Source: Polyangiaceae bacterium
GTDB taxonomy: Bacteria > Myxococcota_A > Polyangia > Polyangiales > Polyangiaceae
NCBI GenBank assembly: GCA_020849655.1
Contig: JADLFU010000120.1
Location: 1 to 47,665 of the forward strand
Reading direction: 5' to 3'
Length of the DNA stretch: 47,665 bases
The notes below the pieces were generated by a model that did not search any database, was not told the DNA's origin, and saw only the letters and a list, made by a program, of their open reading frames with translations. The translations under genes were made by a program, and so were the position numbers. This document shows, piece after piece, positions 33,219 to 40,988 of this stretch. Each line of letters begins with the position of its first letter. The stretch's first letter is position 1.

Positions 33219-34187
33219 ATGACGCGAGGGGCCTGGGCGCTCGCGCCCCTCGCGCTCGTCGCGCTCACGGCGGGCTGCGGTCCGGCGAGGCCCGCGGCCG
33301 CGCCCCCGACGGGCGGGCCGTGGCAGGCGTCGGTCGACGCGGGGCACCCGCTCGTCGGCCGCATCTGGGAGCCGGCGACGGCCTCCTTCACGTCGAGCGA
33401 AGATCTCATCACGCGCGCGGGCGCGGCCAGCTACGTGGTGCTCGGCGAGAAGCACGATCACGCCGACCACCACCGCCTCCAGGCGCGCGTGCTGAAGGGC
33501 GTCCTGCGGGCGCGGCGCACGCCGGTGCTCGCGCTCGAGATGATCGACGTCGACGAGCAGGAGCGCCTCGACCACGCGCCCGCCGAGCCGGGGGCGTTCG
33601 CGGCGGCCGTGGGCTGGGACGAGCGGGGCTTCGCGCCGTTCTCGTCGTACCGGCCGGTGCTCGAGGTCGCGCTCGGCGCGGAGCTGCGGATCGTCGGCGC
33701 GAACCTCCCGCGCGCGCAGGCGAGGGCCGTGGCGAAGGGCGGCCTGTCCGCGCTCGACGCCCCGACGCGCGCGCGCCTCGGCCTCGACGCGCCCCAGGCC
33801 CCCGGAGAGGCCCAGGCGATGGCGGAGGAGATCCGCGTCGCGCACTGTGACGTGCTGCCCCCGAGCGCGTTGCCGTCGATGGCGGCGGCGCAGCGCGCGC
33901 GCGACGCCACGCTCGCCGCCACGCTCGCCGCCGTGCCTCCGGCGCAGGGCGCGGTGCTGATCACGGGGGCGGGCCACGCGCGGCGCGATCGTGGCGTCCC
34001 CGCGCACCTCGCGCGGCGGGCGCCGGGCGCGGTCGTCGTGTCAATAGCGTTCGTCGAGGTCGAGCACGACAAGGACGATCCCGCCGCGTATGGAGCGCTG
34101 CCGTACGACGCCGTGTGGTTCACGCCGCGCCTCGACGATCTCGACCCCTGCCGCGCCTTCCGCAAGCGCGGCGCGCCCTCGCCGTAG
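33219..34187 (+). CDS. ChaN family lipoprotein (haem/iron-related)
   Basis: 322 residues with lipobox LTAGC. The ChaN domain shows LGEKHDHADHH, a long helical middle, AEEIRVAHC and the late GAGHARRDRGVP. ChaN of Campylobacter binds stacked haems and some family members are linked to iron uptake or metalloprotease-like folds. The conserved Glu/His residues are present; the cysteine following RVAH may be additional. It lies 7 bp after the Lys-rich protein gene, so they are probably cotranscribed. Confidence 0.82.
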   Translation: MTRGAWALAPLALVALTAGCGPARPAAAPPTGGPWQASVDAGHPLVGRIWEPATASFTSSEDLITRAGAASYVVLGEKHDHADHHRLQARVLKGVLRARRTPVLALEMIDVDEQERLDHAPAEPGAFAAAVGWDERGFAPFSSYRPVLEVALGAELRIVGANLPRAQARAVAKGGLSALDAPTRARLGLDAPQAPGEAQAMAEEIRVAHCDVLPPSALPSMAAAQRARDATLAATLAAVPPAQGAVLITGAGHARRDRGVPAHLARRAPGAVVVSIAFVEVEHDKDDPAAYGALPYDAVWFTPRLDDLDPCRAFRKRGAPSP

Positions 34188-34245
34188 ACGCGGGTCCACC
34201 GCCGATCTTGGCCCGTCGAGGCAGGCCGGGGGACGATCGGCTCAG

Positions 34246-34827
34246 GTGGACAAGGGGTCGAAGCTCTTCTGGCTGCTGATCTCCGCGCTGATGGCGGCCT
34301 CCGTGCTGTTCGGGATCGGCGCCGAGCGGGGGCGCCGCGCCGTGCAGCGGGCGGCGGGCGCGACGCTCTCCACCGGCGATCTCGTGCGGCTGGTGACGGT
34401 CGTCGACGGCGACACGGTCGTGGTCGCGAAGGGCGACGACAAGGCGACGGTGCGCATCGTCGGCATCAAGAGCTTCCCGACCGACGCGGGCCGCGACGCC
34501 GCCGGGGGCTTCGGTCAGGCCGCGGTCGACGCGCTCCGCCGCGTCCTCGGCGACAAGCCCGCGCGGGTGCTGATGCACGACACGAAGAAGGACGCGAACG
34601 GGCGCCACCTCGCGACGCTCTTCGTCGACGGCGAGGACGTGGCCCTGCGGCTCGTCGGCGAGGGCGCGGTGCTCGTCTACACGGTCTATCCGTTCCCCAG
34701 CATGCCCACGTACTCGGCCGCGCAGGACCGCGCCCGGGCCGCGAGCCGAGGGATCTGGTCGAACCCGGCTGCGGCGGCGAGGGCCGACATGCTCACCAGG
34801 GAGTGGCTCACCGAGGCGTCGCCATGA
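34246..34827 (+). CDS. Membrane-anchored SNase-like protein, catalytic residues altered
   Basis: The GTG at 34246 gives 193 residues with one N-terminal TM helix (FWLLISALMAASVLFGIG) and a staphylococcal-nuclease-like domain from about residue 45 (VDGDTVVV, later NGRHLATLFVDGEDVALRLV and ASRGIW). Arg70 is kept, but the Asp and Glu of the R-x4-D-x2-E catalytic set appear as Lys75 and Thr79 (VRIVGIKSFPT), so nuclease activity is doubtful. The stop overlaps the start of the K+ channel gene by 4 bp, suggesting a joint role at the inner membrane. Confidence 0.8.
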   Translation: MDKGSKLFWLLISALMAASVLFGIGAERGRRAVQRAAGATLSTGDLVRLVTVVDGDTVVVAKGDDKATVRIVGIKSFPTDAGRDAAGGFGQAAVDALRRVLGDKPARVLMHDTKKDANGRHLATLFVDGEDVALRLVGEGAVLVYTVYPFPSMPTYSAAQDRARAASRGIWSNPAAAARADMLTREWLTEASP

Positions 34828-35876
34828 TGGCCGTGCTCGCGACCCTGAAGTCCGCGCTCGCGCGGCCGAAGCCGCCCGTCCGCGTCGCCGTCTCGCTGAT
34901 CGCGCTCCTCTCCTACGGCACGACGGGCTTCTTGTACTTCGAGCTCCCCGCGAAGCCCGAGCTCGGCTGGGGCGACGCGCTCTGGTGGTGCGTGGTGACG
35001 CTGACGACCGTGGGGTACGGAGATTTCTTCCCGTCCTCCGCGGGGGGGCGCTTCTTCGTCGCCGTGCCGTTCATGTGCACAGGGATAGGTTTGTTGGGTT
35101 ATATGTTGTCCTTCGCCGCGACGAAGATGGCGGAGACGAAGACCAGGGAGGCGAGAGGCATGGCCACGCTGTCGTTGACTGAGCACGTCGTCATCCTCAA
35201 CTACCCGAGCGAGGGTCGCGTGGCGTCGGTGATCGAGGAGCTCACCCACGCGGCGTCCTTCGGCGCGGACGTCACAGTGGTCGTCGTCGACGACGAGCTC
35301 GACGAGCTCCCGGCGCCGCTCGCGGCGAGGGGCGTGAGGTTCGTGCGCGGCAACCCGTCGAGCGACGAGACGCTCACCCGCGCGAGCATCGACGGCGCGC
35401 GCCTCGCGCTCGTCCTCGCGAAGGACCGCGCCGACGTGAGCAGCGACCACCGCAACCTCGCCATCACGGTCGCCATCGAGGCCAGGCAGAAGAAGGTCCA
35501 CAGCGTCGTGCAGTGCGTCGACCCGGGCACCGCGCCCCTGTTGCGCAAGGCAGGCTGCGACAGCGTCGTCTGCACGACGCAGCTGGACGCGAGCTTCATG
35601 AGCAGCGAGGCGGTGAGCCCCGGCTTGAAGGCGGTCGTCGACGATCTCGTGACCTCGCACGGAGGCCAGCAGCTGTACGTGACCCCGATCGAGGTGGCGT
35701 CAGCGTCGACCTACGGCGCGGTCGTCGCGGCGGCGGCGGCGCGGGGGCACCTGGCGGTCGGCGTGATGAGCGCGGGAGACTCTCGAATGAACCCCCCACC
35801 CTCGCATCAGGTCAAGCCGGGCGACAGGGTGGTCACCATCGGCCCGGCCAAGCTCGGCGCGCTGAAGCTGGGGTGA
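34824..35876 (+). CDS. Two-TM K+ channel with C-terminal TrkA-N/RCK domain
   Basis: 350 residues. TM1 (about 20-40) and TM2 (about 76-98) flank a pore helix and the selectivity filter TTVGYGDFFP (filter at residues 62-67). From about residue 118 a TrkA-N/RCK-type Rossmann domain follows (HVVILNYPSEG, VVVVDDELDELP, VRGNPSSDETL), with a TrkA-C-like end (HLAVGV, VKPGDRVVTIG). The nucleotide-binding glycine motif is degenerate, as in several Ca2+- or ligand-gated RCK channels. It lies upstream of the DUF350/ATP-grasp genes, which may encode a modulating system. Confidence 0.88.
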   Translation: MMAVLATLKSALARPKPPVRVAVSLIALLSYGTTGFLYFELPAKPELGWGDALWWCVVTLTTVGYGDFFPSSAGGRFFVAVPFMCTGIGLLGYMLSFAATKMAETKTREARGMATLSLTEHVVILNYPSEGRVASVIEELTHAASFGADVTVVVVDDELDELPAPLAARGVRFVRGNPSSDETLTRASIDGARLALVLAKDRADVSSDHRNLAITVAIEARQKKVHSVVQCVDPGTAPLLRKAGCDSVVCTTQLDASFMSSEAVSPGLKAVVDDLVTSHGGQQLYVTPIEVASASTYGAVVAAAAARGHLAVGVMSAGDSRMNPPPSHQVKPGDRVVTIGPAKLGALKLG

Positions 35877-35941
35877 CGCGGGTGCGCTGCCACGCGTCGC
35901 AGGGGACTCGCGGCGTGCGGTGCGTGACCAGGAGGACGTCG

Positions 35942-36484
35942 ATGAACCCTCGTGGATCCAGGGTTGGTTGGTTGCTCATGTGCTCGATGCTCGGCGCGGC
36001 GTGCGGCGGTGGCGCCCCCGAGCCCGAGATCCCGAGGTCCACGGCCCCCGCGGTGCCGCTCACGTCCGCGAGCGCAGAGGCGCCCAGCAAGGCCTCGGTC
36101 GACCGGGCGCCCGCCGCGAGCGCCGCGGCGCGGGCAGCGGAACCTCCCGACGACGCACCGGAGCGCAGACAGCAAGAGCAAGGCGCCCCGGGGACCGCGC
36201 CAGCGGGTGGCGCGATCGACTGCAAGCTGGAGACTCCGTCGATCTCGTTCGGGCTGCGGATCGAGCGGGGCGGGGTCGTCGGTGGATCCTGGGCCAAGGC
36301 CGCCACTCGCGAGTACGGCGAACCCAGGTACGGCGGCCGCGTGATCGAGAACAGCTGGTTCGACCTGGAGATCGTCGGAGACGATGTCCGCAAGGGGACC
36401 CGTCTGCGGGTCCGCTGGCTGGGCAAGACGCTGGAGATCCGCGGGGAGAAGCAGCTCGCCGGGTGCGAACCAGAGTCACCGTGA
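35942..36484 (+). CDS. Lipoprotein of unknown function
   Basis: The ATG at 35942 has a strong AGGAGG ribosome binding site 6 bp upstream and gives 180 residues with lipobox LGAAC. A Pro/Ala/Ser/Glu-rich linker extends to about residue 90; the last ~90 residues form a small beta-rich domain containing two Cys (IDCKLE and AGCEP) likely to form a disulfide. I do not recognise it. Position between the channel and the DUF350 operon makes it a possible periplasmic partner. Confidence 0.7.
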   Translation: MNPRGSRVGWLLMCSMLGAACGGGAPEPEIPRSTAPAVPLTSASAEAPSKASVDRAPAASAAARAAEPPDDAPERRQQEQGAPGTAPAGGAIDCKLETPSISFGLRIERGGVVGGSWAKAATREYGEPRYGGRVIENSWFDLEIVGDDVRKGTRLRVRWLGKTLEIRGEKQLAGCEPESP

Positions 36485-36526
36485 CTCCCGGGCGGGCCTG
36501 TCGCCCGGCGCGAGGCCCACGCCGGC

Positions 36527-36549
36527 TTTGCCACGATCGGAGCGTTGCG
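36527..36549 (+). promoter_or_regulatory. Candidate promoter of the DUF350/ATP-grasp/Tat operon
   Basis: TTGCCA followed after about 18 bp by a CAGAAT-type -10 lies upstream of the ATG at 36566, with no Shine-Dalgarno between, so the transcript would be nearly leaderless. The consensus match is moderate; end positions are approximate to a base or two. Confidence 0.3.
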
Positions 36550-36565
36550 TGCAGAATGGCGCGCC

Positions 36566-37414
36566 ATGCCCATGCGCGTCTACGTCCCCGTGTTCGGCGT
36601 CGCGACGACGCTGGTGCTCCTCCTGGTCCACCAGCTCGCGCAGCGCGCGCTGTCCCCGTCGCCGCTGCGCGAGGACGTCGCGAAGGGCAACCTCGCGCGG
36701 GCGCTGCTCCAGGTGGGGCACGTGTTCGGCGTGTTCCTCGTGTCGGCGTCCACCGTGGCGAACTGCGTGGAGGGCGCGGACGTCGTGCGCGACGTCGTGT
36801 GGGCGGCCGCGTTCGGCGGCATGGCGCTCGCGCTGCTCTCGCTGACGGGCCACCTCGGCGTCCGGATGCTGCTGAAGCACGAGCTGCCCGCCGAGATCGA
36901 GCGCGGGAACGTCGCCGCAGGGCTCGCGGCCGGGGGGCACTACGTCGCCACGGGGATCATCACGTCGCGCGCGATCGCGGGCAACGATCTCGAGAGCCTC
37001 GGGCTGTCGCTCGCGTTCTTCGGGATCGCGCAGCTCACGCTCCACGTCTTCATCGCGCTCTTCCGCGCGCTCACCACCTACGACGACGCGGCCGAGATCC
37101 GCGGAGAGAACGTGGCGGCGGCGCTGTCGTACGCGGGGCTCTCGGTCGCGGTCGCGCTCATCGTCGGGCGCGCCGTCGAGGGCAACTTCGCGGGCTGGTG
37201 GCCGTCGCTGCGCTCGTACGGCGCGGCGCTACAGTACGTCGGCGCGCTCTACCTCGTGCGGCAGATCATCGTACAGCTCATCCTGCTCCGCGGGGGCTTC
37301 TCGCTGCGGGGCGGCGCGCTCGACGCCGGCATCCAGAAGGACAAGAGCCTCTCGATGGGCGTGCTCGAGGCGTCCGCGTACCTCGCCGCGGCGCTCGCGG
37401 CGACGCGGCTGTGA
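36566..37414 (+). CDS. DUF350 (YjfL-like) integral membrane protein
   Basis: ATG 36566 (a second ATG is two codons later) gives 282 residues with about eight TM segments. The DUF350 motif, acidic residue plus [KR]GN-x-A-x2-L then a Gly-containing helix, recurs: DVAKGNLARALLQVG, EIERGNVAAGLAAGG, EIRGENVAAALSYAG and a weaker GIQKDKSLSMGVLEASAY. E. coli YjfL is in this family and its gene neighbours the ATP-grasp gene yjfC. The stop overlaps the start of the ligase gene here (GTGA), supporting a physical partnership at the inner membrane. Confidence 0.85.
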   Translation: MPMRVYVPVFGVATTLVLLLVHQLAQRALSPSPLREDVAKGNLARALLQVGHVFGVFLVSASTVANCVEGADVVRDVVWAAAFGGMALALLSLTGHLGVRMLLKHELPAEIERGNVAAGLAAGGHYVATGIITSRAIAGNDLESLGLSLAFFGIAQLTLHVFIALFRALTTYDDAAEIRGENVAAALSYAGLSVAVALIVGRAVEGNFAGWWPSLRSYGAALQYVGALYLVRQIIVQLILLRGGFSLRGGALDAGIQKDKSLSMGVLEASAYLAAALAATRL

Positions 37415-38655
37415 GCGACGCCGCGTACGACGCCTTCGCCGCGCGCGTCGTCGACGGCGGCCTGTTGCTGGATCCGTGGCTCGCGGGCCGCCCGCGCCTG
37501 CGAGATGCGCCGGTGTTCGTCACGCGCGCCGACGCGGACGAGATGGCCCGCGTCGCCGAGGGCGTGGCGGCGCTGCACCAGGAGCTGGCCGCGCTGTGCG
37601 AGCGCGAGCCCGACCTGCGGCGGGATTTCCTCGGGCTCTCTCCCTACCAGGAGCTCCTGTGGCAGGCGGAGGGGCCGCGGTGGCACGCGGTCGCGCGCGC
37701 CGACGTGTTCCGCACCGACCGCGGGCTGCAGATCACGGAGCTCAACAGCGACACCCCGACGGGGAGCCCCGAGGCCGTCGCCCTGAACTCGCTCGCGCGC
37801 GAGGCGCACCCCGCGACGATCGATCCTTCGAGCGAGCTCGAGGCGCGTGTGATGGACGCGTTCGAGGCCGTCGCGCGCGCGCGGCTCGCGCCGGGGTCCC
37901 CGAGGGTCGCGGGGATCGTGTACCCGACCGAGCTGACGGAGGATCTGTCGCTCGTGCGCCTGTACCGAAGGTGGCTCCTGCGGCGGGGCTGGCGGGTGGT
38001 CCTCGGCGCGCCGGCGAACCTGTCGCGCGCGCCCGGTGATCACGTCACCCTCTTCGGCGAGCCTGTGTCGCTGCTCGTGCGCCACTACAAGACCGACTGG
38101 TGGACCGAGCGAGAGAGCGCGTGGACCGACGTGCGCATCCCGAGCGCGGCGCCGCTCGTCGAGCCGGTGACCGCGATGGTGCGCGCGGTGGTCGCGGGGA
38201 ACGTCGCCGTCGTGAACCCGCTCGGCGCCGTCGTGACGCAGAACAAGCGCCTCCTCGCGCTCGCGTGGGAGCGTCGCGGGGAGCTCTCCGGGCCCGCGCG
38301 CGCGGTGCTCGACCGGCACGTGCCCGAGTCGGCGCGCCTCGAGGCGATGGAGCCCGCGCGCCTCGAGGCCGAGCAGCGAGGCTGGGTGCTGAAGTCGGAC
38401 TACGGCGCGGAGGGCGACGAGGTGATCGTCGGCGCCGCGGTGACGGACGCCGTGTGGCGCGCGACGCTCAGAGCGGCGCGCCCGCGGCGCTGGATCGCGC
38501 AGCGCTACTTCCACGCCGAGGCGTACGATGACGGCGGCGTCGTGAACTACGGCGTGTTCGTCGCGGGCGGACGCGCCTCGGGGATGTACGCTCGCGTGCA
38601 GCGCGGGCCGACCGATCTCGAGGCGGTGAGCGCCCCGCTCCTGGTGACACCATGA
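37411..38655 (+). CDS. Glutathionylspermidine-synthase-like ATP-grasp ligase (YjfC/YgiC type)
   Basis: 414 residues, no signal peptide, cytoplasmic. The pre-ATP-grasp signature ELNSDTPTG (110-118) follows the upstream RADVFRTDRGLQ, as in the YgiC/YjfC group, and the ATP-grasp core is recognisable in LKSDYGAEGDEVIVG and QRYFHAEAYDDGGVVNYGVF. GspS joins the Gly carboxylate of glutathione to spermidine; stand-alone homologues are predicted acid-amine or peptide ligases of unknown substrate. There is no fused amidase domain. It overlaps both the DUF350 gene and the Tat-protein gene by 4 bp, so the three are made together. Confidence 0.87.
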   Translation: MSDAAYDAFAARVVDGGLLLDPWLAGRPRLRDAPVFVTRADADEMARVAEGVAALHQELAALCEREPDLRRDFLGLSPYQELLWQAEGPRWHAVARADVFRTDRGLQITELNSDTPTGSPEAVALNSLAREAHPATIDPSSELEARVMDAFEAVARARLAPGSPRVAGIVYPTELTEDLSLVRLYRRWLLRRGWRVVLGAPANLSRAPGDHVTLFGEPVSLLVRHYKTDWWTERESAWTDVRIPSAAPLVEPVTAMVRAVVAGNVAVVNPLGAVVTQNKRLLALAWERRGELSGPARAVLDRHVPESARLEAMEPARLEAEQRGWVLKSDYGAEGDEVIVGAAVTDAVWRATLRAARPRRWIAQRYFHAEAYDDGGVVNYGVFVAGGRASGMYARVQRGPTDLEAVSAPLLVTP

Positions 38656-39824
38656 AGAAACCAGCTCCCCCGACATCCCCTCCTCCCCCGTCCGCGTCCT
38701 GGTGGGACGAGAGCTGCCTCTCCCGCCCGGACCTCGCGCGCCGCGATCTGCTGAAGGGCCTGCTCGGCGCCAGCGCCGGCGCGGCCACCGCGGCGGGCCT
38801 GTACGCGGGCACCCAGATCGCGGTCACGCGCGACGCGCTCGAGGTGCAGCGCGAGCTCGGGTGGAGCTTCGGCGCCGCGCGGGAGCCGCTCGTGTTCGAC
38901 GGCGAGACCGAGGCGCCGTTCGACCGCGCGGCGCTCGCCACCCTCGTCGCGTCGCTGCGCCCCACGAGCCCCGCGCATCGCCCGTTCTATGTCCCGACGC
39001 TGCTCGAGGCCCCGACCGCGCCGCCGCCGATCGCCCACGACGACGGCGCGCCGACGCTCGCCGAGCAGCTCCTGCCGCTCTGCACCGGCAAGATGGCGGC
39101 GGCGTACCGCCGAGGCGAGGCCCAGGCGACGCGGCTCGCGGACGCTCGGAGCACCCTGGTGATCGTCGACCTGCTCGGGCCCGAGAGCGTCGCCTTCGCG
39201 GCCGGGATGGCGCGGGGGTTCGACGTGGTGCTCGGCTTCGACAACTGGCCGCACCCGCGCGGGGTCGTGGCGTCGCACCTGACGCTGGCCGCCGCTGTCT
39301 ACTACCAGCCGCGCTTTCTCCGCGCGGCCGCCGATCGCCCCGCCGACGCCCCCGCCGTGCTCGCGCTCGACCGCGCCCGGCTCGGCCCTCGAGGCGACAA
39401 GTCCTCCCGCTTCGACAACCGCTACCTCGCGTCCGTCCCCACGGTGGAGGCGCTCCGTGAGCTCGGCGTCACGCGCGTCGTGTACGTGGTGCCGGGGGAC
39501 GACACGACGCTCGAGCTCGACGATCTGAACGCCGATTTCGTCGCGTGGGCGGCGGCGGGCGTCGAGGTGCGCCGGCAGCCCGCGGACGCGCTCGACGCGC
39601 CGGAGTCGACCGACGTCACGCACGCGCCGGTCGCGCGGGAGACGATCTTCTCGCGGTCCGACGGCGCGACAGAGAGGCCGGAGGGCTTCGGCGCGGTGGC
39701 GGTGCTCGTCGCCGCGTCGACGGGGCAGGCCCAGGGGCTCCTCTTCGGGATGAGCCAGCTCGGGTGCTGCGCGGGCGGGGACGACGACGACGGGTGGGGG
39801 CGCGGCTCGAGCACGGGAGGCTGA
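38652..39824 (+). CDS. Twin-arginine exported protein, DUF350/ATP-grasp partner, Gly-Gly tail
   Basis: 390 residues. The N-terminus has ARRDLLKGLLGASAGAATAA, a twin-arginine-like signal. The folded part contains the conserved-looking phrases TLVIVDLLGPESVAFAAGMA, FDVVLGFDNWPHPRGVV, FDNRYLA and VTRVVYVVPGDD. The tail is low-complexity and acidic (CCAGGDDDD, then GWGRGSSTGG), ending in Gly-Gly. I recall relatives beside DUF350 and GspS-like genes in other Myxococcota. The start overlaps the ligase stop (ATGA). The folded substrate of Tat could carry a cofactor; none can be named. Confidence 0.75.
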   Translation: MKKPAPPTSPPPPSASWWDESCLSRPDLARRDLLKGLLGASAGAATAAGLYAGTQIAVTRDALEVQRELGWSFGAAREPLVFDGETEAPFDRAALATLVASLRPTSPAHRPFYVPTLLEAPTAPPPIAHDDGAPTLAEQLLPLCTGKMAAAYRRGEAQATRLADARSTLVIVDLLGPESVAFAAGMARGFDVVLGFDNWPHPRGVVASHLTLAAAVYYQPRFLRAAADRPADAPAVLALDRARLGPRGDKSSRFDNRYLASVPTVEALRELGVTRVVYVVPGDDTTLELDDLNADFVAWAAAGVEVRRQPADALDAPESTDVTHAPVARETIFSRSDGATERPEGFGAVAVLVAASTGQAQGLLFGMSQLGCCAGGDDDDGWGRGSSTGG

Positions 39825-39832
39825 CAGCGGGC

Positions 39833-39850
39833 GGAGTCGTGCGAGACTCC
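39833..39850 (+). promoter_or_regulatory. Hairpin upstream of lipoprotein gene 39855
   Basis: Perfect 6-bp arms GGAGTC/GACTCC flank the loop GTGCGA, 4 bp before the ATG at 39855 and 8 bp after the previous stop. It could limit readthrough from the Tat-protein gene, or GAGACT inside it may be a -10 element for a leaderless transcript. Confidence 0.35.
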
Positions 39851-39854
39851 GCGC

Positions 39855-40988
<1,134 letters not shown>

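Follow-up and report, generated by a model that had tools for sequence, protein, structure and literature searches.

The window, a stretch of 47,665 nucleotides from a Polyangiaceae bacterium (contig JADLFU010000120.1), carries five neighbouring genes on its forward strand. The gene calls were checked by frame-specific GC, start-codon inspection and Pfam (the Pfam scan at the locus covering eight proteins, from 33219 to 40988), and the five genes described in an earlier note on this DNA were confirmed. The features of the locus were as follows.

34824..35876, + strand: K+ channel with two transmembrane segments, an RCK/TrkA_N domain and a TVGYGD filter (Pfam Ion_trans_2 3.7e-16, TrkA_N 9.6e-10)
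about 35942..36484, + strand: orphan lipoprotein, probably outside the module (no Pfam or NCBIfam match)
36566..37414, + strand: tandem DUF350 (YjfL-type) membrane protein (PF03994, two stretches, 110 bits)
37411..38655, + strand, GTG start: GSP_synth-family ATP-grasp ligase, YgiC/YjfC-like (PF03738)
38652..39824, + strand: Tat-signal protein with an alpha/beta core and a conserved C-terminal tail, the proposed ligase substrate (no Pfam match)
38739..38744, + strand: twin arginines of the Tat signal (ARRDLLKG; RR pattern in homologues)
39684..39692, + strand: GFG motif opening the C-terminal region (PEGFGAV; G347 nearly invariant, GFG also in DUF1190-type partners)
39792..39821, + strand: tail end GWGRGSSTGG, its last Gly being the proposed ligation site (by membership of the tail family)

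By sequence inspection, the 4-bp overlaps of the DUF350 and ligase genes (GTGA at 37411) and of the ligase and Tat genes (ATGA at 38652) were real, and the chain of three genes described earlier stood. The upstream SNase gene and the channel gene were also joined by a 4-bp overlap (ATGA at 34824), which is absent from the earlier note. The lipoprotein gene stood apart from its two neighbours, by 65 and 82 bp, so that the tight unit was DUF350-ligase-Tat. The overlaps had been taken as an argument for a stoichiometric complex; what they show is translational coupling, not a complex of that kind.

The ligase and the Tat protein recurred together across several phyla, in 45 loci or more, and DUF350 usually accompanied them. 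Homologues of the Tat protein were present in 24 of 282 Myxococcota genomes. Sorangium cellulosum and Archangium (loci L084, L092, L094 and L095) are examples of cultured relatives that have the module. Among 188 matched Myxococcota genomes, 13 had the Tat protein and 20 a GSP_synth ligase, and all 13 were among the 20; co-occurrence of the two exceeds chance, and the Tat homologues adjoined the ligase in nearly all loci fetched. When genome contigs were searched with the ligase alignment, 80 loci came up; they belong to Myxococcota and to records with the names Chloracidobacterium, Ignavibacteria, Chlorobiota, Planctomycetota, Entotheonella and Bacteroidetes. Most of them contained the pairs DUF350-ligase and Tat protein-protein Y, in a single run or divergently arranged. 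In homologous loci, 4-bp overlaps were found in 30 of 45 codirectional DUF350/ligase pairs and in 13 of 31 codirectional ligase/Tat pairs. Protein Y (L041 7612-8169 and homologues) is an uncharacterised protein of about 190 aa, encoded directly 3′ of the Tat gene in most loci; it had no Pfam match and was not seen at the window locus.

The neighbourhood survey proposed in the earlier note thus bore out part of its module: DUF350, ligase and Tat protein co-occur widely rather than rarely, and the channel was conserved only in the sister species. The sister-species locus L068 had the order channel, DUF350 (14 bp), ligase (-4) and Tat (-4), with 72-88% identity to the window; its channel, directly before DUF350, was 76% identical to that of the window, and the lipoprotein was absent. 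Across 96 genomes of the order, the lipoprotein had only weak partial matches. Other genomes had homologues of the channel at about 48% identity, and in one of them (G102) the channel and Tat genes lay on different contigs. The absence of the lipoprotein from L068, its want of relatives and the separate contigs of G102 together indicated that the module was DUF350-ligase-Tat and that the channel was a genus-level addition. The orphan lipoprotein, counted in the module before, was therefore rejected as a member, and the channel, lacking from most ligase/Tat loci, was rejected as a core member and kept as a genus-level association. Unrelated pairings of a channel with a ligase are also seen in Rhizobium and in two phages, LAh_9 and DSS3_VP1; orthology of the window channel with that of the Rhizobium operon was rejected at only 24% identity, and independent recruitment may apply. 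A stoichiometric complex of all five proteins with the channel as the ligase's target, as had been proposed, could draw on the adjoining channel in the sister species and on these other pairings, but with most ligase/Tat loci lacking a channel and the lipoprotein an orphan, we regard it as very improbable; the ligase probably targets the Tat protein's C-terminal tail instead.

The ligase scored 50.7 bits against PF03738 (curated cut-off 29.3), placing it in the GSP_synth family. Residues R96, D98, E110, N112, D114, K279, K328, Q364 and R395 were the same in all 12 diverse ligases compared, YgiC and YjfC among them, and the active-site pattern RxD...ExN, K, K, Q, R was intact in the window ligase; a loss of ATP-binding residues, which the earlier note had named as evidence against its reading, does not apply. 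The AF2 model of the ligase (pLDDT 90.8) gave Foldseek matches of E 1.6e-18 to 2io8 and TMq 0.71 to 7uk6, its best PDB matches being GspSA 2io8/3o98 (with Mg-ADP), YjfC 7uk6 and YgiC, and it models as the glutathionylspermidine-synthetase/YgiC/YjfC fold. Identity to YgiC and YjfC was only 16%, so the amine specificity was not readable from sequence. The ligase resembles E. coli GspSA (2io8, 3o98) in its ATP-grasp synthetase fold and active-site residues, and differs from it in having no amidase domain and in its proposed acceptor, a protein C-terminus instead of glutathione. In glutathione, GspS ligates at the terminal Gly. RefSeq gives E. coli YgiC and YjfC the name peptide--spermidine ligase, and a peptide-spermidine ligase activity in vitro has been published for them (Pederick 2023, as cited in PMC12270671, PMC10948618 and PMC12568646), so the former statement that yjfC-type ATP-grasp proteins have no settled biochemical role has been overtaken. 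In GSPS-like enzymes the C-terminal carboxylate is phosphorylated and then attacked by an amine (PMC10979984). We favour the window ligase as a candidate peptide-polyamine ligase, an activity assigned by family likeness.

Near its N-terminus, the Tat protein carries twin arginines followed by a hydrophobic stretch (ARRDLLKGLLGASAGAATAAG). This arrangement was detected by pattern in 48 of 52 complete homologues, and by eye in a 49th (L134, DRRTFSKG...LNGC); the window genome has a TatC gene, and the protein is a predicted Tat substrate. In the AF2 model the alpha/beta core was confident and residues 368-390 had pLDDT below 50, suggesting that the tail is disordered. No known fold was assigned to the core (best Foldseek E 0.026, VIA-align Z below 5), a weak result and no proof of a new fold.

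The C-terminus of the Tat protein was kept across phyla behind a variable linker (RSGSWTRTGGSSFG, RSGSFGRSTGSGSG and RNGSLFRGGSTGG among the examples). A strict motif, R[SN]GS[WFLY]xR just before a Gly/Ser C-terminus, was present in 36 of 52 complete homologues, as against a mean of 0.03 after composition-preserving shuffling and 0 of 485 other genes (unrelated genes from the same loci, used as background). A looser motif was found in 51 of the 52, against a shuffled mean of 3.3. The motif usually lay 5-12 residues from the C-terminal end, and the last residue was G, S or A in 96% of Tat homologues and in 24% of other genes. Remote members of the family without an evident signal peptide still had GGFG and a Gly/Ser tail. 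The window tail, PEGFGAV...GDDDDGWGRGSSTGG, was divergent, having lost RSGS and carrying an acidic DDDD stretch ahead of WGRGSSTGG; the sister-species tail of L068, which ends AWGRGSSTGG, also had an acidic run. An apparent ligase-Tat fusion in L064, with a long low-complexity N-terminus in the reading frame on a MAG contig, was not trusted.

A similar tail was found on other partners of the ligase family. E. coli YgiB has the C-terminus RGGFGESVAK...SSRSMGG and YjfM has RGGYGRSSSARGHWGG. All 20 DUF1190-type or unclassified lipoproteins examined beside the ligase family had ends resembling (R)GG[FYW]G...GG, as against 1 of 485 background genes, by the criterion of G[FYW]G within the last 60 residues and at least 6 Gly/Ser in the last 15. 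These 20 spanned E. coli, other Pseudomonadota, actinomycetes and five phages, some of the phage and actinomycete ones having been picked by inspection; the genera included Rhizobium, Vibrio, Pseudomonas, Loktanella, Azospirillum, Methylobacterium, Acinetobacter, Arthrobacter and Nonomuraea. A profile of the Tat family gave no significant match to YgiB (E 0.21) and likewise none to the Arthrobacter partner, and DUF1190 had no match in 188 Myxococcota genomes. Two seemingly unrelated families thus have the same tail, with the ligase as the common factor, and the tail is therefore probably what the ligase modifies. Of 219 immediate neighbours of the ligase 53 bore a tail, as did 4 of the 371 genes at a distance of at least four positions, in raw counts over loci that are not phylogenetically independent; three of these four were Tat-family members with other called genes between them and the ligase. 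In 38 of 117 ligase loci a strict test detected no tail protein up to three genes away. Some of these 38, not all, are explained by contig ends, by gene calling or by the strictness of the test, and several loci (e.g. L074, L079, L087, L113 and L121) were truly tail-less.

Short conserved C-terminal tails of exported proteins are often sorting signals. The tail might then be read for sorting, anchoring or assembly by DUF350 or another membrane factor while the ligase acts on another molecule, which would fit the usual presence of DUF350. We think this fairly unlikely, because the tail tracks the ligase family over unrelated partners and into phages, including loci L181, L201 and L202, where tail and ligase occur and no annotated DUF350 was shown in the fetched stretch; divergent members that lack an evident signal peptide retain the tail, and no hydrophobic helix trails after it. 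The ligase might instead make a small peptidyl-polyamine resembling glutathionylspermidine, with the Tat protein serving independently as an enzyme or sensor. Among the closest structures is GspSA, which uses free glutathione as its acceptor, and the core of the Tat protein, modelled as a Rossmann-like alpha/beta domain, could be catalytic. But this would leave the common tails of two unrelated partner families unexplained, and the amidase half of GspSA is missing here; we hold it to be unlikely.

Our preferred reading, to which we give slightly better than even chances, is that DUF350-ligase-Tat, preceded at this locus by a K+ channel, forms a peptide-polyamine ligase module whose substrate is the tail. 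We infer the role of the tail from sequence, and a polyamine as the amine and modification before export are proposed in the same spirit. The earlier note had let the ligase attach a polyamine, amino acid or peptide to a small molecule or a protein; polyamine to protein is the combination now favoured. In the cytoplasm, the ligase would recognise the disordered tail at the C-terminus of the Tat protein, phosphorylate the C-terminal carboxylate and join the activated C-terminus, a small residue, to an amine, of which spermidine or a related compound is the likeliest. The tagged protein, already folded, would then leave through the Tat pathway and stay held at the membrane; modification in the cytoplasm before export agrees with the export of a folded protein by Tat. 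There the cationic tail may act with the DUF350 protein and, in the window genus, with the channel; envelope lipids or a K+ channel could be what the membrane-tethered polyamine acts on. Every step after ligation is speculation.

The window genome encodes AdoMet decarboxylase and aminopropyltransferases as well as TatC. The nucleophile joined to the tail might nevertheless be an amino acid or an amine other than a polyamine, given that the ATP-grasp fold takes many amines, that the ligase is so distant from YgiC and YjfC, and that oxygenases added to some Myxococcota modules could mean another substrate. Against this, polyamine genes recur near related modules (homospermidine synthase in phage Motura; AdoMet decarboxylase and aminopropyltransferase with DUF350 in the window genome), and the PSP survey describes a polyamine operon (PMC11237479); we consider the proposal improbable.

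The window locus is a variant of the YjfL/YjfM/YjfC-type module with a Tat-type protein in place of DUF1190. As in E. coli YjfL-YjfM-YjfC and YgiB-YgiC, a ligase of the same family, fold and catalytic residues has the gene of an exported partner adjoining it; as in the yjf genes, DUF350 is also part of the unit. The partner tails of the E. coli systems have GFG/GYG and GG ends. The window partner shares the module trait of an exported protein with a GFG-containing Gly/Ser tail, in the divergent form PEGFGAV...GWGRGSSTGG. Unlike the E. coli systems, however, it is a Tat-type alpha/beta protein and not a DUF1190 lipoprotein (no Pfam match), DUF350 is duplicated, the ligase precedes the partner, and there is no yjfI/J/K at the locus.

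The third group of the PSP survey, the PspA-CesT/Tir polyamine operon, is described as containing a K+ channel, DUF350, a DUF1190 lipoprotein, DUF2491 and a GSP-synthetase-like ATP-grasp protein (PMC11237479). The window matches this description in its K+ channel, DUF350, GSP-synthetase-like ATP-grasp protein and exported protein, and departs from it in having no DUF1190 among the genes examined and no PspA, CesT/Tir (DUF2170) or DUF2491 match (Pfam) among the eight proteins of 33219-40988. No mention of the tail similarity was found in the passages of the survey searched, nor of the shared tail in the literature searched, which did not extend to Iyer et al. 2009 (PMC3268129) and Pederick 2023 themselves, so that its novelty is provisional. 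With that proviso, the conserved tail of the Tat protein and its likeness to the tails of DUF1190-type partners appear to be new here.

No paper naming a natural substrate of E. coli YgiC or YjfC was found in the literature searched. The shared tail nominates YgiB, YjfM and the partners of the whole family, including the phage copies, as C-terminally modified proteins. If true, this would give YgiC and YjfC a natural target, add polyamine modification of proteins in bacteria, and provide a biochemical setting for DUF350 and DUF1190. More tentatively, and with somewhat less than even confidence, we propose that one ligase family, in bacteria and phages, puts polyamines on a convergent GFG...Gly/Ser tail of exported proteins that are unrelated to one another; the polyamines would thereby be tethered to the membrane and act on K+ channels or the envelope.

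Several further arrangements were observed. Aeromonas phage LAh_9 (L202 1549-3682) has a mini-operon of a K+ channel, a lipoprotein ending RGGFGSIGGRSGGGFSSGS and a YgiC-like ligase. Within 4 kb, Achromobacter phage Motura (L198 803-4396) has a homospermidine synthase, a lipoprotein ending RGGFGSTGSSFSAGG, a ligase and DUF350. On contig C142 of the window's own genome (L008 17-1697), a 70-aa DUF350 protein lies beside a protein of 488 aa that likewise has a Gly/Ser tail, ending GGGSSTGGGTWGSSGSSRGGK. A second DUF350/polyamine context was found on contig C183 of the same genome (L009 5317-7420), where 4-bp overlaps join three genes, encoding AdoMet decarboxylase, a DUF350 protein of half length and an aminopropyltransferase of 505 aa; a tail-bearing neighbour was sought for this operon and none was seen.

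Many Myxococcota loci also carry protein X, of about 272 aa and without a Pfam match, in which an HxD...H...R pattern suggests a 2-oxoglutarate/Fe(II) oxygenase; the window genome has a second locus, of the protein X-bearing kind, on contig C134. Near the ligase, a second copy of protein X lies beside a Rieske ring-hydroxylase-type oxygenase (Pfam) at L042 2168-5374, and beside an unclassified gene of 353-393 aa at L007 6849-8761 and similar Myxococcota loci. The extra oxygenase-type genes at such loci may possibly serve further modification of the tail or the amine.
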